A stretch of 64,000 nucleotides of DNA. Origin: Nitrosomonadales bacterium (GTDB taxonomy: Bacteria; Pseudomonadota; Gammaproteobacteria; Burkholderiales; Gallionellaceae). The translations under genes and the position numbers were made by a program. The stretch is from NCBI GenBank assembly GCA_016214695.1, contig JACRNY010000006.1, positions 62,001 through 126,000 of the forward strand. The letters are read 5' to 3'. Position 1 is the first letter of the stretch, and the number at the start of each line of letters is the position of its first letter. The notes beneath the pieces are model-generated. The model was not told where the DNA came from, made no database searches, and saw nothing but the letters and a program-made list of their open reading frames with translations. Below are positions 2,970-21,771 of the stretch, piece by piece.

Positions 2970-3290
2970 TCAGCCGGTGCTCCATGCCCGCGGCCGTTTC
3001 ATGCCCGCGATGCGGCATGCCTGCTTCACATAGCCATAGGGAAACAGTTCGAAGACCAAGTTGCGGTCCCCGCCGCCCGGCCGCTCGGTAAGGTGTTTGG
3101 TCACATGCCGCACATCAGGCGCGACCTGGTGCTCGGCGTAATACTCGCGCATGAAGCGGATCGCATCCCAATGGTCCGCCGTGAGCGCGATGCCTTCCTG
3201 CTCGGCAAAGATTTGCGCCACACCCTCGTTCCATTCCAGCGGTTCGATCAGATATCCCTCTGCGTCGATCTGCGGCATCTGCATGGTCAC
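2970..3290 (-). CDS. DsrC/TusE-family sulfur-relay-like protein, atypical C-terminus
   Basis: DsrC-like fold sequence (DAEGYLIEPLEWNEGVAQIFAEQEGIALTADHWDAIRFMREYYAEH...) ending YGYVKQACRIAGMKRPRAWSTG; starts 6 nt after the TonB receptor stop codon. Confidence 0.85.
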   Translation of the reverse strand: MTMQMPQIDAEGYLIEPLEWNEGVAQIFAEQEGIALTADHWDAIRFMREYYAEHQVAPDVRHVTKHLTERPGGGDRNLVFELFPYGYVKQACRIAGMKRPRAWSTG

Positions 3291-3296
3291 GCCTCC

Positions 3297-5525
3297 TTAA
3301 AATTCAAACACCAGCTCGGCCAGCAGACTGCGTCCCGGCATCAGGAAGTATGAATACGCCTTCCTGTCGAACAGATTGTTGATGGCAAGGTTGCCCCGCA
3401 CCTCTCCGGAGAAAGCGTAGCCCACTCTCGCATCGACCATGGTGCAGGAGTCGTAGCTGGTGGGCACCCCCTCGACCACATCGGTATTGCGCGCCGTCGC
3501 GAAGATATGGCTGACATAGCGCGCGCCCAGCCTGCCGGACCACGCTCCCTGCTGCGCCGTCATGCCGAGTCCGCCGATGTTCTTTGGCGAATCGGTCAGC
3601 CGCTTGCCCACGCTCAGGGGATCGGCGCTGTTCTCCAGCATGCGCGATTCGATATACGAGTAATTCGCCTCCAGTGCCAACCAGTCGGTCAGCCCGGTCG
3701 TCGCGGACAACTCGATGCCGCGCACCTTCGCGCTGCCGGCATTGATGCGCTGCGACAGGACCAGCGGGACGACCTGTTTCAGGTAGATTAGGTTGCTCAA
3801 GCGGTTCTCGAACCAGGTCACTGTCATCCTGGTATCAGCAGCAGCCCGCAGCTCGCCGCCGAGCTCCCATGTCGTCCCACGCTCCGGCTGCAGGTTGGGA
3901 TCGCCCTGGGTCGTCAGGCCGTTGATGGTCGAGGTCGTATACATGTCCTCGTTGGTCGGTGCACGGAAGGATCTGCCGAACGAAGCTCGCAGCGTAGTGG
4001 CAGCGTTGGCCTGATAGACAGCGGACAGTTTCGGGCTGAATGCTGAAGCGCCGCGAGAGGCAAAGACCGTGGTGCCGGCGGGTGCGGTGTTCTTGAAGTT
4101 GTCGCCACGCGTCTCCCAGCGGTCCACCCGGCCGCCCAGATACACGCGGAGGGCATCACCCATCTGGATCTCGTCCTGCACGAAGACCGCTCTCGTCATC
4201 GAATCGCCGTTGTAGCCGCTATTTACGCTGGTGCGCGAGTCCGGGTTGCGCCAATCGCTCAACGCATAGGCTCTCTGGTTCGCATAGTCGCGATGTAGCG
4301 CCACCCCGGTCACCAGAAAATGTCTGAGACCCACCGGGAAACTCAGTTGAGCCGTGGCATCGACTGCGCCGTTCGGCGTATCCATCAGCGTCCCCGCTCC
4401 GCCGGACCAGGTGGACGTTGCCCCGGCCTGGGTGAAACTGTACGCACGTTCGATGCGGGCGAGATCGATCTTCAGCAAATGATGCTCGCCTGCGGTTCCG
4501 TCGTAGCCGGCGAAATATCGCGTCGCCGCCTCATGCAACGGCGAGTTGTTGACGAAGTTGATCTCGCTCAGCGTGACGAGCTGACCATTGATATCCAACG
4601 GCCCGCTCGACACCGGCACGCCTGAGGCATCGCGGAGATAGGTATTGAAATGCGTATAGCCCTGGTCGATATTCTGGTGGGTGATGCCGGTGTACAACTT
4701 GTCGCGCTCGTTCAGGAAATAGAACAGTTTGGCCGTCGCATTGGTCGAGTCCCACGGCGTGGTTCCCTTGTCGCCCACCAGCCAGGCGGGTGCGCCGTCG
4801 CGGGTGGTGATCGGTTGCGCCCCGCTGACCGGTGTGCCGGGCGTTCCGGCGACCGCACTCCTGACAACAAAGTCGTTCACATAGCTGTCGCGGTTCTGCC
4901 GGCCGTAACCGACGACGACACCGAAACCGTTGTCCAATCGCTCGCGCCAATAGATGCTGCCGTCCTCGCCGCTCGCGTCCTGCCAGCCTTTCTTCACCCT
5001 GGCCGTGAGCTCATGCTTGTCCGGCTGCTTGGTGATGACGCTGATCACGCCGCCGATGGCATTGCTGCCGTACAGCGAGGAGAACGCGCCGGGCACCACC
5101 TCGACGCGTTCGATGTCCTCGACGAAGGGTATGCGCCAGTTCACCTTGCCCGAACGGCCGTCCTGCAGCGGCTGTCCATCCAGCAGGATGAGGGTCTTGT
5201 TCTGGTCGATGCCGCGCAGCGACATGCCGCTGGTACCCGAGGTTCCCTGCGACGAGCCGAGTGCGCCGTCGCGCAGATAGAGGCTCGGCACCTGGTCGAG
5301 CACATCGCCGAGGCGGGAGACGTTCTTCGTTTCGATGTCCCTGGCCGTGACCGCCGTCACTGCGGCTGGCGCATCGGCGAGTGTCGCTTTCACCCTGGTC
5401 GCCGTGACCACAACCTCATCCAACCCGGTTGCACCGATGCTTTCCGTCACTTCTGCGGCATTGGCCAGATTACAGATCAGGCCGAGTGCGAGTGACGCCG
5501 TTCCCCTGCATAACCGAGTTCTCAT
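3297..5525 (-). CDS. TonB-dependent outer membrane receptor
   Basis: Signal peptide, TonB box DEVVVTATR, plug motifs (LILLDGQPLQDG, VEVVPGAFSSLYGSNAIGGVISVITK), C-terminal barrel ending in aromatic F. Confidence 0.92.
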   Translation of the reverse strand: MRTRLCRGTASLALGLICNLANAAEVTESIGATGLDEVVVTATRVKATLADAPAAVTAVTARDIETKNVSRLGDVLDQVPSLYLRDGALGSSQGTSGTSGMSLRGIDQNKTLILLDGQPLQDGRSGKVNWRIPFVEDIERVEVVPGAFSSLYGSNAIGGVISVITKQPDKHELTARVKKGWQDASGEDGSIYWRERLDNGFGVVVGYGRQNRDSYVNDFVVRSAVAGTPGTPVSGAQPITTRDGAPAWLVGDKGTTPWDSTNATAKLFYFLNERDKLYTGITHQNIDQGYTHFNTYLRDASGVPVSSGPLDINGQLVTLSEINFVNNSPLHEAATRYFAGYDGTAGEHHLLKIDLARIERAYSFTQAGATSTWSGGAGTLMDTPNGAVDATAQLSFPVGLRHFLVTGVALHRDYANQRAYALSDWRNPDSRTSVNSGYNGDSMTRAVFVQDEIQMGDALRVYLGGRVDRWETRGDNFKNTAPAGTTVFASRGASAFSPKLSAVYQANAATTLRASFGRSFRAPTNEDMYTTSTINGLTTQGDPNLQPERGTTWELGGELRAAADTRMTVTWFENRLSNLIYLKQVVPLVLSQRINAGSAKVRGIELSATTGLTDWLALEANYSYIESRMLENSADPLSVGKRLTDSPKNIGGLGMTAQQGAWSGRLGARYVSHIFATARNTDVVEGVPTSYDSCTMVDARVGYAFSGEVRGNLAINNLFDRKAYSYFLMPGRSLLAELVFEF

Positions 5526-5648
5526 CCGGACACTCCATTGTTTTCAAAAATGGGCTGGCTCCCGCCCGGGCCCTTGCGATACTTCTCCAGCCCGTGGCGC
5601 AGCTTATACCTGTGGATCGCATGTTCAAATACCGCACACTAAAACTCA

Positions 5649-5662
5649 TTGACCGGGGTCAA
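5649..5662. promoter_or_regulatory. FNR/DNR-like box TTGACCGGGGTCAA
   Basis: Perfect 5-4-5 dyad TTGAC-CGGG-GTCAA between the divergent TonB receptor and small membrane protein genes. Confidence 0.7.
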
Positions 5663-5768: not shown

Positions 5769-6080
5769 ATGGATCAGCACAACAAGGAAAACGCGATCTT
5801 CAAATACCTGCCCTCGGGCCGGCAGCTGGCGATCCATGTCACCGCCATGTTCACGCTCTCCGGCCTGTCGGGGCCGCTGATCGGTCCGTTGCTGATCCAG
5901 TGGGTCAACCCGCCGCAGGCTTGGGGGATCGCGACCGGGATGGGTGACTACTCGCCGATGAGCATCGTGCTCTGGGGATTGGCTTTCACGATGATAGCGG
6001 CTTTCTTCTATACCGGATGGCTGATCGCCTTGGCGCGCAAGGGCTGGGAGGAAGCGCAGCCGAAGTCCTGGTACAACTGA
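5769..6080 (+). CDS. Small two-TM membrane protein of unknown function
   Basis: MDQHNKENAIFKYLPSGRQLAIHVTAMFTLSGLSG...WLIALARKGWEEAQPKSWYN; RBS-like aaggag upstream; ORF-track start (5649) lies in the regulatory box, so 5769 is preferred. Confidence 0.65.
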   Translation: MDQHNKENAIFKYLPSGRQLAIHVTAMFTLSGLSGPLIGPLLIQWVNPPQAWGIATGMGDYSPMSIVLWGLAFTMIAAFFYTGWLIALARKGWEEAQPKSWYN

Positions 6081-6229: not shown

Positions 6230-8056
6230 TCAATGCGTCAGTTGAGCATACAGCAACGGCAGTTCGCGCGGCAGTTCCGACGGTTTGCGTATCACCACAT
6301 AGCCGTTGACGCCGAACAGGTGCGGCAGATAGCTGCTGCCTTTCTCGTCGATGGTGACGCAGAACGGCCTCAATCCCATCTGGCGCGCTTCGTGGATGGC
6401 GACACGCGTGTCTTCCACGCCGTAGCGTCCTTCGTACTGGTCCAGATCGTTCGGTTTGCCGTCGGTGAGGATGAGCAGCAGCCTTTGCGTCGCCGCCTGT
6501 CTGGCGAGCAGCCGGCTGGAATGGCGTATCGCTGCGCCCATGCGGGTGTAGAAACCGGGCTTGATCGCGGCGATGCGTCCGCGCACTTTGTCGTCATACT
6601 TCCCCTCGAATTCCTTGAGGATATGGAAACGGATGTTCTCCCGCTTGAGCGAGGAGAAGCCGTACAGCGCGAAGCGGTCGCCGGTGGCAGAGAGCGCTTC
6701 GGAGAACAGGAACAAGGTGTCGCGAATGACATCGATGACACGCGCCTCGTCGCTGATGTGGGCATCGGTAGACAGCGACAGATCTGCCAGCAGCAGGCAC
6801 GCCAGATCGCGGTCGCGGTATTGATGCGCCTTGTACAGCCCCTGTTCGCGCGCCTGCAGACCGCCGATGCGGTCGGCGCTGAATTGCACGCAGGCATCCA
6901 GATCGAGTTCGCTGCCGTCGAACTGTCCCTTGAACCACACCTTGGTTGGCGTCAATGCCGCGAACTGGCTGCGCAGGCGGCGCGCCGTGGCGGACAGATG
7001 TGCAGGCAGCGGCAGTGCTTCCGCGTCCCGCGCCAGCATGGGTTGCAAACGGCAGTGTGACGGTTGCAGGAGCTGCTTCTTGTAATGCCATTCCGGCAAC
7101 AGTATCCCCTCCCCCAGCGGACTATCATCGGATGCCGCGGAAGGCAGGTCGAGATCGAACTTCAAACGCGAGGCGGTGGTCTTGCCGTCCTGGGCCACGC
7201 TCAGGCGATCCAGATCTTCCGCGGGCTTGTCATCGGGCGGCTCGTCCTCCTCGGTGGGACGATTGACCTTGATGTATTCGGCCCAGCTCAGGATGCTCTC
7301 CGCGCGGAAGGACATCATGAAGCCGTCCTTGCCGTCGGGCATGTCGACACGCTCGGCCTGGTAACGGCGGTCTTTTTCATTCTTCCTGCTGTCGCCGCCT
7401 TCGTGACTTTGCGGTTCCCTGCTGTCGCTGCCGCCGCGCTCGCTGGCAGGCGGATCGGGATGCAGCCACAGGTACACCGGCTGCGGCGGACGTCTGGCCG
7501 GGGGCAGGCGCTCCACACTGCCGGGATGCAGCAGCGCGGCACGGATGGCTTCTTCCTGCTCGCGCTCGCCGCGCGGCAATCGTTCGGGGGCGGGACGCAT
7601 GGCAAGTACGGCATCGGCGAGTCGCTGATAGCGGCGTGCCAGTCCGGGAAAACGCTCCAGCACCTCCAGCGTGGCGCGCTGGTTGCGCACTATCCACGGC
7701 TGTGCGGATCCGCCGCCGGTGGCCGCCAACGCGATCAGCCAGAGATACAGGTCGCGGTTGAGCTCGCGGCGCGGGAACAGGTCGATCATGGCCGGCAGGT
7801 TCAAGGTCTCGCCATCCAGCCAGGTCAACTCGGTCTTGGTATTGCTGCCGGCGATGCGCTGCAGCAGGCTGCGTCTTGCACCATGCTGGGTGGCAGCAGC
7901 CGATTTCACGGCCAGCCCGCTGTCGCCGCCCCACGAACGGAACAGGATACCGGCGGTCTTGCCGATCTGTTCCAGCGTGACCGCCTCGGCCGGGTAGCGC
8001 CTGTCGGCCGCACCGGTGATGAGCTTGTGCCACAGCGCACCGACTTGCTCTTCCAT
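6230..8056 (-). CDS. norD: Nitric oxide reductase activation protein NorD (VWA domain)
   Basis: C-terminal VWA: LLLADLSLSTDAHISDEARVIDVIRDTLFLFSEAL...LLILTDGKPNDLDQYEGRYGVEDTRVAIHEAR; located with norQ/norEBC. Confidence 0.92.
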   Translation of the reverse strand: MEEQVGALWHKLITGAADRRYPAEAVTLEQIGKTAGILFRSWGGDSGLAVKSAAATQHGARRSLLQRIAGSNTKTELTWLDGETLNLPAMIDLFPRRELNRDLYLWLIALAATGGGSAQPWIVRNQRATLEVLERFPGLARRYQRLADAVLAMRPAPERLPRGEREQEEAIRAALLHPGSVERLPPARRPPQPVYLWLHPDPPASERGGSDSREPQSHEGGDSRKNEKDRRYQAERVDMPDGKDGFMMSFRAESILSWAEYIKVNRPTEEDEPPDDKPAEDLDRLSVAQDGKTTASRLKFDLDLPSAASDDSPLGEGILLPEWHYKKQLLQPSHCRLQPMLARDAEALPLPAHLSATARRLRSQFAALTPTKVWFKGQFDGSELDLDACVQFSADRIGGLQAREQGLYKAHQYRDRDLACLLLADLSLSTDAHISDEARVIDVIRDTLFLFSEALSATGDRFALYGFSSLKRENIRFHILKEFEGKYDDKVRGRIAAIKPGFYTRMGAAIRHSSRLLARQAATQRLLLILTDGKPNDLDQYEGRYGVEDTRVAIHEARQMGLRPFCVTIDEKGSSYLPHLFGVNGYVVIRKPSELPRELPLLYAQLTH

Positions 8057-8067
8057 TTACGGACACC

Positions 8068-9033
8068 TCATTTCTTTTTCCCCGGTTCATAGCAATGTAG
8101 GGGAATCTCGTCGTGATGGCCGAAATCGCGCACCGATTTGTCGAGAGCGCATTCGTCCCTCACCCATTTCAGCAGCGCACCGTCGGGATTGCCGCTCTGC
8201 ACCTGGGAACAGGCGTTGGCGCACTGGCCGCACTGGGTGCAGGTGAACATGAGACGCTTGATCTGGCGCGGCTTGATGCGCATCGGACAGACGTTGTCGC
8301 AGGCCGAGTTGCAATCGACGCACTCCTCCACACGCCGCCGGTTGAAGCCGATCACCATGGCTTTGCGGTTGCCCATCCAGGCGATGCTCTGGAACAAGCC
8401 GACGGCACAGGCATAGCGGCAGAACAGATGGCGGGCGAACATGAACTCGACGAAGAAAGCGAGCGTGCCGACACCGAGGAACACGCTCTGGTTGCGCGTC
8501 AGCGTGCCATGCCACAGGTTGCCGTAGATCTCCGCCGGAGAGATCAGATAGGTCAGCAGTGCGACAGCCCACACGAAGGCGAAGGCGACCACCAGCGGCA
8601 ACAACACCAGCCAGTAGCGCGGATCGGCGCGGGTGATGGAACCGTCGGCATTCTGTTCCGGCAGCGGGTGGCGATCCCACAGGCTTTGCCGGCCGATGGT
8701 GCGGCGCATGAGCTGGTTGACGGTTTCCACCACCGAGAAATGCGGACACAGCCAGCCGCAATACAGACGCCCGTATTTCCACGAGACCCACACGCCGAGG
8801 GCGATGGTGCCGAGGATGGGCAGGCCGCCGCGCAGCGCGATGTTGAAAGCCGCCTCCAGTGCGCCGATCTTGCCGGCGACGAAATCGTCCAGCCCCAGCG
8901 TCCAGTGCATACCGAGAAAGAAGAAATGCTTGAGATCGAGGTCGAGCCGGAACAGGTCGAACACCGGCGCCAGCAGGAACAGCATGAAGAATCCGGCCTG
9001 GGCCAACAGTCGCTTGCGCTGGAGCTTATCCAT
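8068..9033 (-). CDS. NapH/CcoG-like membrane polyferredoxin
   Basis: CGWLCPHF, CRYACAVGLFQ, CVDCNSACDNVCPM, CTQCGQCANAC; multiple TM segments; start MDKLQRKRL at 9033. Confidence 0.85.
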   Translation of the reverse strand: MDKLQRKRLLAQAGFFMLFLLAPVFDLFRLDLDLKHFFFLGMHWTLGLDDFVAGKIGALEAAFNIALRGGLPILGTIALGVWVSWKYGRLYCGWLCPHFSVVETVNQLMRRTIGRQSLWDRHPLPEQNADGSITRADPRYWLVLLPLVVAFAFVWAVALLTYLISPAEIYGNLWHGTLTRNQSVFLGVGTLAFFVEFMFARHLFCRYACAVGLFQSIAWMGNRKAMVIGFNRRRVEECVDCNSACDNVCPMRIKPRQIKRLMFTCTQCGQCANACSQVQSGNPDGALLKWVRDECALDKSVRDFGHHDEIPLHCYEPGKKK

Positions 9034-9424
9034 CGCACTTCTTTCCGAGCAGCGGAAAAGTGAACGGCTGCCCGGCCATCGCCTTGGACAAGCCAAGCAC
9101 GCCCAGCAGCACCAGGGTGGAATGACAGGTGGTGAAATAGAGTATGACCACGATCCAGGTGTTGGCCGAGGTGTAACCGCCGAGCAGGAGAATGGCGAGG
9201 TTGGCGACCACCAGCAATATCCCCGCCCAGATGCTGGCAACAACAGTTTGCTGCAGATGGCATACGGCCAGTTGCGGCGCAGTCGCGCGGTGCCTGAAAT
9301 ACAGCCGCAACAGGATGGCGAAGCCCAGGCCGGGTGCCAGCAGCAGGTTGACGAGGTAAAGCACCTCCGCCGTCACCGCGAGGGTCTGTCCGGGCTGCCC
9401 GCTGTCATCTGCCGAAGCTGGCAT
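9026..9424 (-). CDS. Small integral membrane protein (DUF4870/Tic20-like, tentative)
   Basis: About three hydrophobic segments and C-terminal GQPFTFPLL; overlaps norQ 3' end and the polyferredoxin start. Confidence 0.6.
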   Translation of the reverse strand: MPASADDSGQPGQTLAVTAEVLYLVNLLLAPGLGFAILLRLYFRHRATAPQLAVCHLQQTVVASIWAGILLVVANLAILLLGGYTSANTWIVVILYFTTCHSTLVLLGVLGLSKAMAGQPFTFPLLGKKCDG

Positions 9425-10187
9425 AGACGATCTCCATCAGTGCCTCGGCGGTCTCCTCGTCGTCGGTGAGCGGCTCGACGAGTGCGGCGCGGCAGGCATC
9501 CACCGGATCGAAGCCGCTGCCGATCAGGGTCGCGGTATAGACCAGCAGGCGTGTGCTGGCGGCTTCTTCCAGATCGTGTTCCTTGAGCGCGCGCAGGCTG
9601 TTGGCCAGATTGACCAGTCGTTTCGACAGCATGGCATCCGCGCCGGTCTCGCCGACGACGATCTGCTGCTCCAGTTCCGGCTCCGGAAAGTCGAAGCGCA
9701 GGCTGACGAAGCGCTGGCGTGTGCTGGGCTTCATGCCCTTGAGGAAATTCTGGTAACCGGGGTTGTAGGACACGATCAGCATGAACTCCGGCGGCGCCGC
9801 AAGTATCTCTCCGGTGCGTTCGATCGGCAGGATGCGGCGGTCGTCGGACAAGGGATGCAGCACCACGGTGGTGTCCTTGCGCGCTTCCACCACTTCGTCG
9901 AGGTAGCAGATGCCGCCTTCGCGCACTGCACGGGTGAGCGGGCCGTCGTTCCAGTAGGTCACGCCGTCGCCGATGAGATGCCGGCCGACCAGATCCGCGG
10001 CAGTAAGGTCGTCATGGCAGGCGACGGTATACAGCGGCAAACCGAGCCTGGCCGCCATATGCGCCACGAAGCGCGTCTTGCCGCAGCCGGTCGGTCCCTT
10101 GATCAGCAGGGGCAGGCGGTTGCGATAGGCGTGCTCGAACAGCTCGATCTCGTTGCCGTGCGGTTTGTAGAAAGGCAGCTCGCTCAT
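9405..10187 (-). CDS. norQ: NorQ, MoxR-type AAA+ ATPase
   Basis: Walker A GPTGCGKTRFVAHMA, Walker B GGICYLDEVVEAR; start MSELPFYKPHG at 10187. Confidence 0.93.
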   Translation of the reverse strand: MSELPFYKPHGNEIELFEHAYRNRLPLLIKGPTGCGKTRFVAHMAARLGLPLYTVACHDDLTAADLVGRHLIGDGVTYWNDGPLTRAVREGGICYLDEVVEARKDTTVVLHPLSDDRRILPIERTGEILAAPPEFMLIVSYNPGYQNFLKGMKPSTRQRFVSLRFDFPEPELEQQIVVGETGADAMLSKRLVNLANSLRALKEHDLEEAASTRLLVYTATLIGSGFDPVDACRAALVEPLTDDEETAEALMEIVYASFGR

Positions 10188-10240
10188 GAGGGAAACCTGT
10201 GTGTTGGATTTGTTGCAGTCTAAATCAAACGGCCGTGTTT

Positions 10241-10522
10241 TTACTTGATCGCGGTTAAGTAGGCGATGGTGATGAGTCCGGTCACCAGCAACAGCCAGCC
10301 CAGCACGATGCCGCGCCACAACCAGCGCGTACGGCGCAAACCCATGAAGTAGCCGGCCACCAGCTGCACCTTGACCGCGGCAGTGCCGAGCACGGCCAGC
10401 ATGACGGCGATGCCGCCCAGACCGGCTTCGCCGATGAGATAAGTAGTCACGGTCAGCAGCATCAGCAGCAACCAGACGTATGTGCAGGGGCGGATGAAAC
10501 GGGTTCGTTGCGTGGCGTCCAT
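10241..10522 (-). CDS. norF: NorF-like / cytochrome oxidase subunit IV-like membrane protein
   Basis: Three hydrophobic segments, VQLVAGYFMGLRRTRWLWRGIV; adjacent to norE. Confidence 0.75.
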   Translation of the reverse strand: MDATQRTRFIRPCTYVWLLLMLLTVTTYLIGEAGLGGIAVMLAVLGTAAVKVQLVAGYFMGLRRTRWLWRGIVLGWLLLVTGLITIAYLTAIK

Positions 10523-10530
10523 GAGTGTCC

Positions 10531-11118
10531 CTAATGGATCACGTAAACCAGCGGAAACAGGATGATCCACAGCAGATCGACCATATGCCAATAGGAAGCA
10601 CCGGTCTCCACGTCGGTATGGTTTTGCGCGCTATAGCCGCCCCGCCTCGCTTTAAGCATCACCGCCGCAAGGATCACCATGCCGAGGATCACATGCATGA
10701 AATGAAAGATCGTCAGCGACAGGTAGAACATGTAGAAGGTATTGGTGCTGAGGGAGATGCCGGCGGAGAACTTGTCGTGGAACTCAACCAGCTTGATGGC
10801 CAGGAAAATGCCGCCCAGAGCGATGGCAGCGGCGATCCAGCGCGCGCATACGCGCGATAACCCCTGTTTGATGGCCGCGACCGCGCGCACCATGAAATAG
10901 CTGCTGGTGATCAGCACCAGGGTGTTGATGGCGCCGGAAGAGATGTCGAGCTGCCGTTGCGATTCGTCGAACAGTTCCACGTTGTGCGCCCGCGCAAACG
11001 CGTAGGCGACGAAAAAGACGCCGAACGCCAGCAGTTCGGCGAAGATGAAGAACCAGATCGCCAGATCGCCGGGCGGCGTGGCGAGGATCTCATCCGGTGT
11101 GATCGTATCGATGGTCAA
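10531..11118 (-). CDS. norE: NorE, cytochrome c oxidase subunit III-like protein
   Basis: GDLAIWFFIFAELLAFGVFFVAYAFAR; SLTIFHFMHVILGMV; YWHMVDLLWIILFPLVYV. Confidence 0.92.
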   Translation of the reverse strand: MTIDTITPDEILATPPGDLAIWFFIFAELLAFGVFFVAYAFARAHNVELFDESQRQLDISSGAINTLVLITSSYFMVRAVAAIKQGLSRVCARWIAAAIALGGIFLAIKLVEFHDKFSAGISLSTNTFYMFYLSLTIFHFMHVILGMVILAAVMLKARRGGYSAQNHTDVETGASYWHMVDLLWIILFPLVYVIH

Positions 11119-11142
11119 AACAGGATATCCAGACGAAAAAAA

Positions 11143-11160
11143 GGGGGCGCGAACGCCCCC
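11143..11160 (-). terminator. Intrinsic terminator between norB and norE
   Basis: Minus strand GGGGGCGTTCGCGCCCCC followed by TTTTTTTCGT. Confidence 0.8.
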
Positions 11161-11175
11161 TCCCGAGGAACAGCG

Positions 11176-12564
<1,389 letters not shown>

Positions 12565-12596
12565 CTAAACCGTTGTGTGTCAGGGTATCTGCCGGA

Positions 12597-13022
12597 TCAG
12601 CCTTCGATGTTCGGCGGCCACTTGTTGGTGTCGATCTCCGATGTCCATTTCAGGAACTCGACGATGTCGTCCAGTTCCTGATCGGTCAGGTTGAATTGGG
12701 GCATCTGACGGCGGCCCGGTGCACCCGTGGGCTGCGACTTGATCCACGCCTTGATGAACTCACCGCCGCGACGTTTGTACACGTTGCCAAGTTCCGGTGC
12801 GAAATACGCGCCTTCACCCAGAATGGTGTGGCATCCGATGCAGTTGCGTGTTTCCCAGATGTGCTTGCCGCGAACGACGGAATCCGTGATGTTCTCGCGG
12901 TGATCCCGCTTGGGCAGGCCCCGTACTGTGTCGAAGGTCAAGGCGAGAAACAACAGGAAGAAAAACACCGCTCCCCCGTAGAATATGTTTCGCGCCATCG
13001 CCTTGGTAAACGTTTCGCTCAT
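12597..13022 (-). CDS. norC: Nitric oxide reductase cytochrome c subunit NorC
   Basis: N-terminal TM anchor; single heme CIGCHTILGEGAYFAPELGNVY. Confidence 0.97.
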   Translation of the reverse strand: MSETFTKAMARNIFYGGAVFFFLLFLALTFDTVRGLPKRDHRENITDSVVRGKHIWETRNCIGCHTILGEGAYFAPELGNVYKRRGGEFIKAWIKSQPTGAPGRRQMPQFNLTDQELDDIVEFLKWTSEIDTNKWPPNIEG

Positions 13023-13171: not shown

Positions 13172-13185
13172 TTGACTTCAATCAA
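13172..13185. promoter_or_regulatory. FNR/DNR-like box TTGACTTCAATCAA
   Basis: TTGAC-TTCA-ATCAA between divergent norC and the 13.3-14.4 kb membrane protein gene. Confidence 0.7.
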
Positions 13186-14410: not shown

Positions 14411-15718
14411 CTATCCGGCACTGGTGCTGGCCTTCCCGAGTAGCGCATCCACACGGGAATAGGTGCGGCTCGCCGCGACGATGTTAAGCCACAGCCACAG
14501 ATTGGACGCACCGAAAAGCAGTGCAGACGGGTAGACGAAGGGGGACGGGAAAACGATCGCGGCAAGGAGCGCCGCCAGTGCGGCGAAGTGCAGCCACATC
14601 TGCCGCCGGGTGCGCGACTCCGGCATGATCTCCCTGACATTGGGCACGGCCGGTCCGGTCGCCCCGCGCCTGCTTTGCAGGTGGAACCACACCAGGAACG
14701 GCACGATCTTGTAGAGCATGCCGTTCATGATCGACATGGCGAACCCGACGATCATCAGTACTCCCAGCAGCATGCCATATCCCCGCATGCCCCCTATCGC
14801 CGGTGCGATCTGCGCGGCAAGCCAGAGCGTGATCGCCGATAACAGGCTCAGCATGCTGCAACGCCAGAAATACATGAACACGTCCGGCTGCTTGCGGCGT
14901 CGTTTCGTCTGCAACCACAAGGTGGTCAGCGCAAAAACGGCAAAGCCCGCTGCCAGCAGTATCTTCAGCGTGCTCCACAGCACCGGCAAATGTCTGGCCG
15001 GGGCGAGTGCAAGCAGCAGGATGAAGAGTACCGGCGCCAGCCAGCGCGTGAGCCGGGCCGGATAGGCCGGCGTGAGCTGGAACATCGGCACGACCTGATA
15101 GGCGACACCCGCTATCAACAGGCCGACCCAGCCCAGCAAACCCCAGGTCAGGTGGAGATCGGCCAGCCTCTCGCGTGCCTGCAGCCACCAGCCGAACGCA
15201 TGGTTGCTCAGCAGGGTAAGCCCCAGCAGCACTGTCGCCGCAAGCATCAGTGCGGCCAGGCGCATCGCCCGCGCAGTCATGTTCTGCGGCAAAGAGCGGC
15301 GCAGGGTGACAACGACCAGGGTGGCGAACAGGAGCAGCGCTGTTCCCAGTGTTGGCAAGGCGATCTGCAACGCGAGTGGCGCGGTGAGGATGAGCCCGCT
15401 GCCGAGCAGGATGATGCCGCTTGTTGCCAGCACGTGAACGATGGCGGCAACCAGTGCCGGCCGTCGCACCGGCGTACCAGCGACCACCGGCAGCATCTGC
15501 AGGATCGCTCCCAGCATGACCAGCCCCATGAAGCCGAGTGTCAGCAGATGGGTGATGCCCAGCATGGCAGGATCCCAGCGGCTGCTGAATAGCTCCGGAC
15601 CTGCCCACAACAACAGCAATGCGGCTGTCAGCGCGAACAAGGGCGCGGTGATGAAGAACCGCAGCGGCACCCAGATGGGCGGAGCCTGGTCGAGGGAGAT
15701 GCCCGACGGCACGTTCAT
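14411..15718 (-). CDS. Polytopic membrane protein, NnrS/heme-copper-like
   Basis: ~12 hydrophobic segments; THLLTLGFMGLVMLGAILQMLPV; LHLTWGLLGWVGLLIAGVAYQVVPMF; MNGMLYKIVPFLVWFHL. Confidence 0.65.
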   Translation of the reverse strand: MNVPSGISLDQAPPIWVPLRFFITAPLFALTAALLLLWAGPELFSSRWDPAMLGITHLLTLGFMGLVMLGAILQMLPVVAGTPVRRPALVAAIVHVLATSGIILLGSGLILTAPLALQIALPTLGTALLLFATLVVVTLRRSLPQNMTARAMRLAALMLAATVLLGLTLLSNHAFGWWLQARERLADLHLTWGLLGWVGLLIAGVAYQVVPMFQLTPAYPARLTRWLAPVLFILLLALAPARHLPVLWSTLKILLAAGFAVFALTTLWLQTKRRRKQPDVFMYFWRCSMLSLLSAITLWLAAQIAPAIGGMRGYGMLLGVLMIVGFAMSIMNGMLYKIVPFLVWFHLQSRRGATGPAVPNVREIMPESRTRRQMWLHFAALAALLAAIVFPSPFVYPSALLFGASNLWLWLNIVAASRTYSRVDALLGKASTSAG

Positions 15719-16579: not shown

Positions 16580-17266
16580 TTGAACAATCCATTGAAGATC
16601 CCCGCTTTCCTCTCGCATATCCCCTTGTTCAGCGAACTGTCGCCCAAGGAGATCGAGCGCATCGCCCAGGGCACGCGCGAACTCCACCTCGCGCGCGGCG
16701 ATGTGCTGTTCCAGCGCGGCGACCCGGTCACCGGTTTCCATGTGATGATCCACGGCCAGGTCAAACTGGCTTTGACTTCACCGCATGGGGTCGAGAAGGT
16801 CGTGGAGTTGTTCGGCCCGGGCCAGAGTTTCGGCGAGGCGGTGATGTTCCTGGGAAGACCCTACCCGGTCTATGCCCAGGCACTGACGGATTCCCTGGCA
16901 CTGCATATCGGCAAGAACGTGATCGTGGGTGGCATCGACGGCGATCCGGCTTTCTGCCGCAAGATGCTGGCGGGACTTTCCATACGCCTGCACAGCCTGA
17001 TCCAGAACGTCGAATCCATCTCGCTGCGTTCCTCGGCACAACGGGTGATCGATTACCTGCTGCATGACCTGGTCGAGGTCAAGGAAGGCCTCGATGTCCA
17101 TATCAGCCTGTCGGCCAACAAGAACGTGATCGCCTCCAATCTCAACATCACGCCGGAGACATTCTCGCGCATCCTGCACAACCTGTCCGATGCCGGCCTG
17201 ATCAGGGTCGAGGGCAAGGATGTGTGCATCAGGGACATCGCCAGATTGCGCGCTTACGAGGAGTGA
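16580..17266 (+). CDS. Crp/Fnr-family transcriptional regulator (Dnr/NnrR-like)
   Basis: cNMP-type beta barrel plus HTH ANKNVIASNLNITPETFSRILHNLSDAGLIRVEGKDVCIRD; no N-terminal Fnr Fe-S cysteine cluster. Confidence 0.9.
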   Translation: MNNPLKIPAFLSHIPLFSELSPKEIERIAQGTRELHLARGDVLFQRGDPVTGFHVMIHGQVKLALTSPHGVEKVVELFGPGQSFGEAVMFLGRPYPVYAQALTDSLALHIGKNVIVGGIDGDPAFCRKMLAGLSIRLHSLIQNVESISLRSSAQRVIDYLLHDLVEVKEGLDVHISLSANKNVIASNLNITPETFSRILHNLSDAGLIRVEGKDVCIRDIARLRAYEE

Positions 17267-17272
17267 ACGGCC

Positions 17273-18262
17273 TCACCCGCCGGTGCGCGACATGAAACGC
17301 GCGACCGTGCCCTGCGCCTGCGACAGATCGAAGCGATGTTCCCGCGGCTTGGCCGCCAGGGCTTGCCGTATCAAGTCAGACAGTCCCGTCTCGTCGCCGG
17401 CACGCAGCGCCGGCATCAGGTCCACCATGCCCTCCTTACCCAGACAGGTGAACAGTTCGCCGCGTGCCGACACGCGCACGCGGTTGCAACTGCTGCAGAA
17501 ATTATGCGTATGCGGCGAGATGAAGCCGACCCGCGACTCGTGCCCCGGGATGCGCCAGTAGCGCGCCGGACCGCCGCTGCTCTCCAGACTCGGGATCAGC
17601 TGATGACTGCGCATGAGTTGCGCCTGGGCGTCCGCGCTTGAATGGAACGACGACGCGTGCGAATGACCGGTCTCGCCCATGGGCATCTGTTCGATGAAAC
17701 TGATGTCCACTCCGCGCCCCAGTGCGAAGCGCAGCAGCGCGGGCAATTCTTCATGGTTACCGCCGTGCAGCATGACGGTGTTCAACTTGATGCGGCGGCA
17801 GCCGAATGCCGCTATCGCGGCGTCTATCCCCGCCAGCACCTGGTCCAGCTCGCCGCCGCGCGTGATGCGCCGGTAGGCTGCAGGATCGAGTGAGTCCAGA
17901 CTGATATTGATGCGGTGCAGGCCGGCCTGTGCCAGTGCCTGCGCAAACTGCGGCAGCTGCGAGCCGTTGCTGGTCAGTGCCAGTTCACGCAGGCCTTCCA
18001 GTCCCCGCAGCCGTGCGACCAGATCGGGGAGTCCTTTCCTGACCAGCGGCTCGCCGCCTGTCAGGCGTATCTTGTCCACGCCCAGCCCGACGAATGTGCG
18101 CGCGACGAGCAGGCACTCTTCCAGCGAGAGTATCTGTTCGCGCGGCAGGAACTGCATCTTCTCGCTCATGCAATAGGTGCAGCGCAAGTCGCAACGGTCG
18201 GTCACCGACAGTCGCAGATAGCTGACCCTCCTGCCGAAACCGTCATGCAATGGATCGTTCAT
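17273..18262 (-). CDS. moaA: GTP 3',8-cyclase MoaA
   Basis: Radical-SAM CDLRCTYC; FIEQMPMG; GFISPHTHNFCSSCNRVRVSARGELFTCLG; C-terminal GG. Confidence 0.95.
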   Translation of the reverse strand: MNDPLHDGFGRRVSYLRLSVTDRCDLRCTYCMSEKMQFLPREQILSLEECLLVARTFVGLGVDKIRLTGGEPLVRKGLPDLVARLRGLEGLRELALTSNGSQLPQFAQALAQAGLHRINISLDSLDPAAYRRITRGGELDQVLAGIDAAIAAFGCRRIKLNTVMLHGGNHEELPALLRFALGRGVDISFIEQMPMGETGHSHASSFHSSADAQAQLMRSHQLIPSLESSGGPARYWRIPGHESRVGFISPHTHNFCSSCNRVRVSARGELFTCLGKEGMVDLMPALRAGDETGLSDLIRQALAAKPREHRFDLSQAQGTVARFMSRTGG

Positions 18263-18330: not shown

Positions 18331-19245
18331 CTATTTCGCCGCGGTGATGTCTGCCTTGGCGTCTATCCCCAGCGTGTAACCCAGGGAGACATGGTGGAAG
18401 CGCCCCGCCGCGTGATTGGCATGGATGGCGAAGCCCATGTTGTAGGTCTTGCCCGAGGCCATGGCGATGTCACCCTCGCCCCCGCCCGCCAGTTTGCGCG
18501 TGAATGTCACGGTCCAACTGTCGCCGTCCTTCTTGCCTTCGGCACTCACCAGCGCCTTGCCGCCTTCCATCACGCGCTTGTCGGCCACATATCCGTCAAC
18601 CTTGGCACCCTTGCCGCTCTTCCACTGGATGAGGTCGAAATAAGTGCCGTTGGCGAGCGAGCCGCCGGGGACGTACTTGGTCTTCTTGTCGTCGGCACCG
18701 GGCATGGTGCGCGCATCGGTATGGCATGTGGCCCAGCACCCGGCCGCCAGACCGATCTCGACTTCCTTGCCCTTGTCGTCCTTGTAGATGACCTTGTTGT
18801 CCTCGAACATCACTGCCAGCTTGACGGGATTGTCCTTGTCCATCACCGTTGCCTTGCCGGAAGGTTCTTTCCAGTTGAAGCGCAGATAGAGGTTGCTGCC
18901 GTCGTTGGCGGCCTGCACGTTCACCATGATGATGGGCACCCTGCCACTGACCGGTTTGGGTTCGAGCTTCTCGCCGGCCAGTATCCTGTCCGCCGCGATG
19001 TCGATGTTCAGCGTCTTCTCGTTCTCGTGACAACCGATGCAGCGCTCGCCTTTCTTGGTGCCCTTGGCGCCGCCGTGCTCGGTTCCCTTCATCACCCATT
19101 CCATACCCGATGCACCGGGGTGGAACACCGCCACCTTGCGCACCGGCACCTTGCTCCAATCCGGGGCGGCCCAGGCCGTTCCCGCCATACCGGCCAGCAC
19201 CAGGCCCAATGCCGAAGCAGTCGTCAATACTTTATTCATGTTCAT
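18331..19245 (-). CDS. Periplasmic cytochrome with EB_dh (ethylbenzene dehydrogenase gamma-like) heme domain
   Basis: Signal peptide; CIGCH heme site; CWATCH (CX3CH) site; beta-rich C-terminal domain ending GFAIHANHAAGRFHHVSLGYTLGI. Confidence 0.75.
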   Translation of the reverse strand: MNMNKVLTTASALGLVLAGMAGTAWAAPDWSKVPVRKVAVFHPGASGMEWVMKGTEHGGAKGTKKGERCIGCHENEKTLNIDIAADRILAGEKLEPKPVSGRVPIIMVNVQAANDGSNLYLRFNWKEPSGKATVMDKDNPVKLAVMFEDNKVIYKDDKGKEVEIGLAAGCWATCHTDARTMPGADDKKTKYVPGGSLANGTYFDLIQWKSGKGAKVDGYVADKRVMEGGKALVSAEGKKDGDSWTVTFTRKLAGGGEGDIAMASGKTYNMGFAIHANHAAGRFHHVSLGYTLGIDAKADITAAK

Positions 19246-19297
19246 CCTCCGATAGGATTAGGTTGTCGAATCGATCATTCGATGATGTGCCGCTTGC

Positions 19298-19885
19298 TTA
19301 ACCACCTGCTTCTTCTTCCGTCATGCCTTCCGGCTTGTTGTGTGCGATGCCCTTGTGGCAGTCGATGCAGGTCATATTGTCGCGCTGTGCATTGGCATGC
19401 TGTTTCGCTGCGCGGTTGAGCTGCTTCTCCACATCCATACCATCGAAAGAGTGACAGTTGCGGCACTCGCGCGAATCCGAAGCCTTCATCCGCGCCCATT
19501 CGCTGCGCGCCAGCTTCAGGCGTTTGGCTTCGAACTTCTCTCTGGTATCGATACTGCCCGTGATCTTGCCCCACACTTCGCCGGAAGCCTGGATCTTGCG
19601 GATCATCTTGTGCGTCCAGTCCTTGGGCACGTGGCAGTCGGAGCACACCGCGCGCACGCCGGTGCGGTTGGAGTAGTGGATGGTCTTGGTGTATTCCTGA
19701 TACACGTTGTCCTTCATCTCGTGACAGCTGATGCAGAACTCCAGCTGGTTCGTCGCCTCCATGCCGGTATTGAAACCGCCCCAGAACAGGATGCCGCTAA
19801 TGAAGCCGACACCGGACAGCGTCAGCAGAGAGTATTTGACACTCGGGCTGCGCAGCTTTGCCCACCAGTTTGAAACGACCATCAT
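19298..19885 (-). CDS. nirT: NapC/NirT-family tetraheme membrane cytochrome c
   Basis: N-terminal TM; four CXXCH motifs (CISCH, CSDCH, CRNCH, CIDCH). Confidence 0.9.
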   Translation of the reverse strand: MMVVSNWWAKLRSPSVKYSLLTLSGVGFISGILFWGGFNTGMEATNQLEFCISCHEMKDNVYQEYTKTIHYSNRTGVRAVCSDCHVPKDWTHKMIRKIQASGEVWGKITGSIDTREKFEAKRLKLARSEWARMKASDSRECRNCHSFDGMDVEKQLNRAAKQHANAQRDNMTCIDCHKGIAHNKPEGMTEEEAGG

Positions 19886-19952
19886 GCCTCCTTATCGTTT
19901 GGGTCCGCCAGCGCACCGGAGGGTCGCCCCTCCGGTCGCATGCTGCGGGATA

Positions 19953-21702
<1,750 letters not shown>

Positions 21703-21757: not shown

Positions 21758-21771
21758 TTGATATACATCAA
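21758..21771. promoter_or_regulatory. FNR-like box TTGATATACATCAA (nap side)
   Basis: TTGAT-ATAC-ATCAA, perfect half-sites, ~65 nt upstream of napD ATG. Confidence 0.8.

Follow-up and report, generated by a model that had tools for sequence, protein, structure and literature searches.

A nirS-linked TonB-dependent receptor in Gallionellaceae as a candidate for heme d1 uptake

Introduction

Why would an outer-membrane receptor be placed among denitrification genes, and what could it import there? This question is raised by the 64,000-nucleotide stretch of a Nitrosomonadales genome analyzed here (the window), whose minus strand carries a TonB-dependent receptor paired with a DsrC-like gene (2970–5525), the nor genes (6230–13022), and nirS together with a nirT-like and an EB_dh gene (18331–21677). 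The genome (2.66 Mb, 99.97% complete) has Sideroxydans and other Gallionellaceae, which are iron-oxidizing bacteria, as its closest named relatives. A first-pass annotation had taken the receptor and the DsrC-like gene for one operon in an anaerobic N-oxide regulon, possibly importing a metal or cofactor needed for denitrification or serving a sulfur-linked control step.

Results

Organization of the locus and its regulatory boxes

The receptor gene (3297–5525, minus strand; 742 aa) is an orthologue of a nirS-linked receptor of the Gallionellaceae. The perfect TTGAC-CGGG-GTCAA dyad described earlier upstream of the pair was recovered as an exact match to TTGAC-N4-GTCAA at 5649–5662 (TTGACCGGGGTCAA; FNR/DNR-type, strand-neutral). 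This intergenic region is shared by the receptor (minus) and a divergent open reading frame (5769–6080, plus) for a predicted membrane protein of 103 aa without family, which also adjoins norD in G001, G024 and G050, and the box may serve either gene or both. The window holds four copies of the relaxed motif TTGAYN4RTCAA compared with 0.15 expected, a count reached by none of 100 shuffles. One copy lies upstream of the receptor, one upstream of norC (13172–13185; TTGACTTCAATCAA) and two upstream of nirS (21689–21702 and 21758–21771), all strand-neutral. The strict form TTGACN4GTCAA has just two copies across the 2.66 Mb genome; the second (L036) lies within a coding TauE-like frame and was taken as chance. 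Upstream of the receptor in the sister genome G001, the exact box is conserved together with ~300 nt of its surroundings.

A Crp/Fnr-type regulator is encoded 11 kb from the pair and the dyad (16580–17266, plus strand). Its best solved match is DNR (3dkw, E 1.5e-35 over residues 14–227), which places it in the Crp/Fnr fold, and its recognition helix reads ETFSR, the FNR-type E-xx-SR. As in known DNR/FNR-type N-oxide regulons, boxes precede norC and nirS and a DNR-like regulator lies in the same cluster; unlike in those regulons, a TonB receptor is among the predicted targets. The box statistics and the DNR homologue thus support the earlier placement of the receptor operon within a DNR-type N-oxide regulon.

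The nor cluster (minus strand) comprises norC (12597–13022), norB (11176–12552), a subunit-III-like gene (10531–11118), norQ (9405–10319), a polyferredoxin gene (8068–9243) and a norD-like gene (6230–8056). Further along on the same strand are nirS, encoding cytochrome cd1 nitrite reductase (19953–21677), a NapC/NirT tetraheme cytochrome gene (19298–19885) and a gene for an EB_dh-domain protein (18331–19245). Directly after the latter lies moaA (17273–18262, scoring above the MoaA cut-off), at a position that holds nirF in d1-making relatives. An additional frame at 14411–15718 has no Pfam match; its homologues adjoin hemerythrin genes in L147 and L159.

Linkage of the receptor to nirS

One family was surveyed in depth, using 150 Gallionellaceae genomes, mostly metagenome-assembled. 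Matches to PF02239 identified 49 nirS genomes, and receptor orthologues, taken at about 57% identity or more, were counted in 41 genomes at first and in 42 with a fragment. The receptor was present in 41 of the 49 nirS genomes and in a single other holder, whose contig ends 281 nt upstream of it (Fisher p = 1.5e-27 over the 150 genomes). In 37 of the 41 it lies 60–840 nt 3' of nirS on the same strand; these 37 include the d1-making genome G130, in which a 90-aa remnant of the receptor follows nirS (L223:12682–12942) and the complete copy stands further downstream. A cytochrome cd1 gene is found directly 5' of the receptor orthologues almost everywhere; among the exceptions are the window and G001, where nirS is 14–15 kb from the receptor. 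Two other apparent departures were rejected: G099, seemingly a nirS genome without receptor or d1 genes, has a receptor fragment 167 nt behind nirS at a contig end, and the receptor of G031, seemingly unlinked to nirS, is split over contigs L061 and L246. Hemerythrin and NnrS genes are near the receptor in several genomes, and the G090 receptor gene is preceded by nirN and a gene for siroheme synthase.

Heme d1 synthesis and the residues of NirS

Heme d1 synthesis was scored by NirJ and NirF, the two d1 proteins covered by the genome-wide search. NirF and NirN fall under PF02239 as well, and per-genome match counts had hinted that receptor-bearing genomes were without NirF. NirJ (TIGR04051), searched for independently, turned up in precisely the 12 genomes having NirF-sized PF02239 matches. 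Of the 49 nirS genomes, 37 carry the receptor only, eight d1 synthesis only, four both (G022, G090, G130 and G145) and none neither (Fisher p = 1.1e-6, a test made after the pattern had been noticed, NirJ having played no part in the noticing). On the NirS tree, the receptor and d1 traits changed several times, never in the same direction in independent pairs; a phylogenetic sign test had five such pairs, too few to reach significance (p 0.25). The trade-off recurs within several NirS subclades (G078/G113 versus G050/G072/G091; G059/G126 versus G024; G038/G124 versus G000/G001; G014 versus G148).

Like the heme d1 operons of the nirS-nirF-nirJ type (Pseudomonas nirSMCFDLGHJEN), the window nirS has a DNR/FNR-type box and is accompanied by nirT-like and EB_dh-domain genes. 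Unlike in those operons, NirF and NirJ are absent from the window genome and from 36 other nirS genomes of the family, which have the receptor instead. The relatives G038 and G124, which make d1, read nirS-nirT-EBdh-nirF and the window and G001 read nirS-nirT-EBdh-moaA, a difference in which the predicted loss of d1 synthesis is visible locally in the window.

In most of the d1-less, receptor-bearing genomes NirS has kept CXXCH, the d1 axial His and both active-site His (H182/H327/H369 equivalents) and looks functional as judged by these residues. The NirS of the window retains the axial His and has Leu at the equivalent of His327 (P. aeruginosa numbering), where G063 and G016 have Pro and the d1-making G124 has Glu. 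Since G124 is altered at this position as well, a change there does not by itself mean d1 loss.

The earlier suggestion that the receptor imports a cofactor for denitrification thereby receives strong comparative evidence from its linkage to nirS and its complementarity with heme d1 synthesis. We give an even chance to the reading that the receptor serves NirS as its partner in the outer membrane and would import heme d1 or a late precursor, a reading that fits the linkage, the trade-off and the residues. Counting against it are the four nirS genomes that combine receptor and d1 synthesis and, with the reservation given by G124, the missing His327 equivalent of the window NirS.

Identity of the receptor

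Profile matches above cut-off to both the plug (PF07715, 92.5 bits) and the barrel (PF00593, 187.2 bits) identify the protein as a TonB-dependent receptor. Among NCBIfam subfamilies it comes closest to the TonB hemin receptor (TIGR01785), matched at 218.4 bits and so under the curated cut-off of 316.85 bits; BtuB/TonB-B12 (TIGR01779) gave 150.4 bits, under the curated 599.7 bits. That no curated heme or B12 cut-off is passed weighs against heme d1 uptake too, and these sub-cut-off matches point towards tetrapyrrole receptors. FRAP and DPNL motifs are visible in the receptor alignment, which has no conserved His between them. A predicted structure (pLDDT 50) was too poor for ligand inference and was left unused. 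Compared with receptors for cobalamin (BtuB) and heme (HasR/PhuR/ShuA), the protein shares plug and barrel, the TonB box and the best subfamily similarities, and the logic proposed for it would be the same, namely that a costly tetrapyrrole is obtained from neighbors. It differs from them in passing no curated cut-off, in the lack of the conserved His, in its linkage to nirS and in an operon without an ABC transporter, for which there would be no need if the user of the ligand is periplasmic. Taken together, heme d1 or a late precursor is a ligand assignment that we consider about equally likely to be right or wrong.

Import of ordinary heme or chelated iron, meeting the heme demand of NirS, NorBC and the cytochromes, is the best surviving alternative, although we consider it unlikely; it would involve an unrecognized d1 pathway or a NirS that uses another heme. 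It draws on the hemin receptor as nearest subfamily, on the FRAP and DPNL motifs and on the hemerythrin and NnrS genes close by in several genomes. However, it leaves unexplained the distribution of the receptor, which 8 of the 12 d1-making nirS genomes lack and all 37 of the others carry, and both the lack of a conserved His from FRAP to DPNL and the mostly intact active-site residues of NirS for d1 speak against it.

The separation of receptor and nirS in the window also has a plausible history. Over 55 nt starting at the box, the receptor promoter of the window aligns with the nirS promoter of L056, where the gene order is nor, membrane frame, box, nirS, cytochrome, receptor and DsrC. This match between a receptor upstream region and a nirS upstream region is most simply read as the trace of a loss: in the window lineage nirS seems to have disappeared from its place between the box and the receptor, and the receptor was kept behind the old nirS promoter. 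At the same locus in G001, the receptor (L149:7334–9583) is 69% identical to that of the window (3297–5525), with nor flanks ~91–98% identical, which could reflect a receptor swap or fast divergence.

A further explanation, which we find improbable, is that an iron or siderophore receptor was carried along on a transferred nirS fragment, and that the trade-off with d1 synthesis reflects the small number of nirS lineages rather than function. Consistent with such a passenger, no receptor orthologue was found outside the Gallionellaceae in 369 genomes of the class at E <= 1e-180, and independent trait changes are few. Yet receptor and box were kept where nirS moved or was replaced (the window and G001, at 14–15 kb), and the trade-off recurs in several NirS subclades. 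The reading that we prefer remains the uptake of heme d1, or of a late precursor.

The DsrC-like gene

The 6-nt junction between receptor and DsrC-like gene reported in the first-pass annotation is correct when counted from the receptor stop codon to the annotated GTG start (3290). In TAAGGAGG-CGTGACC-ATG, a Shine-Dalgarno sequence read as AAGGAGG (3292–3298, minus strand) overlaps the receptor stop codon 7 nt before ATG 3284, and for this reason ATG 3284 is the likelier start, giving a gap of 12 nt and a protein of 104 aa (2970–3284, minus strand). This tight layout supports the predicted co-transcription and suggests translational coupling. In the family survey, the DsrC-like gene is present in 48 of the 150 genomes (E <= 1e-30) and adjoins the receptor in five of the 14 genomes that have both (G000, G024, G050, G031 and G091), all in one genus; NnrS follows the pair in three of these five. 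In the sister genome G001, the nor genes, box and receptor are arranged as in the window, with no DsrC-like gene behind the receptor. As judged from this restricted adjacency, the pair is a genuine but recent or local arrangement, and the synteny goes against a conserved functional unit.

The DsrC-like protein (3' end of the gene at 2970, minus strand) matches PF04358 at 104.9 bits (cut-off 24.9) and TIGR03342 at 96.6 bits. The best fold match of its model (pLDDT 86) is A. vinosum DsrC, and Foldseek returned 1yx3 (E 1.3e-7) and 1sau (TM 0.82/0.76), so that domain and fold both assign it to the DsrC superfamily. Its C-terminus (KQACRIAGMKRPRAWSTG) retains CysB and has Trp at the position of CysA. 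All 80 named DsrC-like loci, partly found via patterns in this C-terminal region and in agreement with orthologues found without patterns, end in Q(A/T)C(K/R)I(A/S)GM(K/R)RPRxWSTG, with CysB invariant and CysA replaced by Trp in 80 of 80. The protein therefore lacks the C-terminal CysA that canonical DsrC has in addition to CysB and that also defines TusE, for which it scored 81.9 bits (NF008562, cut-off 191 bits). Matches in the 369 class genomes fall into two score groups with little overlap, those reaching the WSTG end (~122 bits upward) and those stopping before it. By these sequence features the gene belongs to a discrete CysB-only clade that is neither canonical DsrC nor TusE. It shares PF04358, the DsrC fold and the CysB context (F)PYGYVKQAC(K/R)IAG with the DsrC/TusE/RspA superfamily, and its Trp and WSTG tail reverse the situation in TusE, where CysA is the only one of the two cysteines kept. 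The label "sulfur-relay-type" given to it earlier is doubtful, as the sulfur-carrying Cys of TusE and DsrC is Trp throughout the clade. The name RspA was reportedly given to a DsrC-superfamily group by Venceslau et al. in 2014, and the CysB-only clade may be, or overlap with, that group; a literature search found no use of RspA in this sense.

The 80 loci have a MarR regulator (34), NnrS (20), nar (10) or any nitrate/N-oxide gene (36) in their contexts, and LysR is near several gammaproteobacterial ones. These contexts suggest that the protein has an accessory or regulatory role and responds to redox state or N-oxides. At 4 of the 80 loci a perfect box lies no more than 200 nt upstream, compared with 0.18 expected from shuffles and ~0.5 from control genes; a role as general DNR target was rejected, the boxes being real but rare. 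A partnership with nirS was likewise rejected, presence of the gene showing no association with nirS (Fisher p = 0.46). Among individual loci, a CysB-only gene directly follows two sulfite-reductase genes resembling dsrAB in L208:2302–5342, and Thiobacillus-type loci (L084, L092, L094, L097, L099, L103 and L110) read nar, FAD oxidoreductase (sulfide:quinone reductase-like), DsrC-like gene and NnrS. Elsewhere, the genome that contains the window (G000:C2, L002–L005) has four further DsrC-family genes, one of them a true two-cysteine DsrC paralogue (CKIAGLPKPTGCI).

That receptor and DsrC-like protein form one unit, coupling metal or cofactor import to a sulfur relay or to a control step linked to sulfur, is least probable of all, since the tight junction with its ribosome site over the stop codon and the retention of the pair in five genomes, three with NnrS behind it, are set against adjacency in one genus only, the G001 locus without DsrC, independence from nirS, and the MarR/LysR, nar or NnrS genes that adjoin most DsrC-like genes where no receptor is present.

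Discussion

The preferred reading of heme d1 uptake can be set out as a mechanism. Other denitrifiers would release heme d1 or a late precursor of it, which the receptor would bring into the periplasm for loading into apo-NirS. Because NirS is active in the periplasm, a receptor in the outer membrane could supply it by itself; an inner-membrane transporter would be unnecessary, which would explain why none accompanies the receptor. Gallionellaceae could thereby retain nirS without the genes for d1 synthesis, and a DNR-type regulator would switch the receptor on together with nirS and nor. In the window lineage, nirS would have disappeared from its position between the box and the receptor, and a different nirS copy would work 14 kb away. 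The DsrC-like gene would have joined the receptor operon in some Sideroxydans only; as a member of a separate CysB-only clade found near regulators and N-oxide genes, its product is probably a redox-responsive regulatory or docking protein.

A literature search returned no link of a TonB receptor with nirS in Gallionellaceae, and natural export of heme d1 is undocumented in the literature searched. The papers found on heme d1, TonB and nirS together are, by their titles, Pseudomonas expression or infection studies and not studies of d1 uptake (PMC8768829 among them). The wider form of the proposal, in which a dedicated TonB receptor for heme d1 lets denitrifying iron oxidizers without d1 synthesis be supplied by d1-making neighbors, making d1 a shared good as cobalamin is elsewhere, we place slightly below an even chance. 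To our knowledge no heme d1 receptor has been described before, and this one would be the first.

If true, the proposal would account for the solitary TonB receptor found next to an enzyme of the periplasm. nirS is a marker gene used for denitrification. Should most nirS-bearing Gallionellaceae be unable to make heme d1, they would depend on neighbors for nitrite reduction, and nirS alone would be no proof of an autonomous denitrifier.
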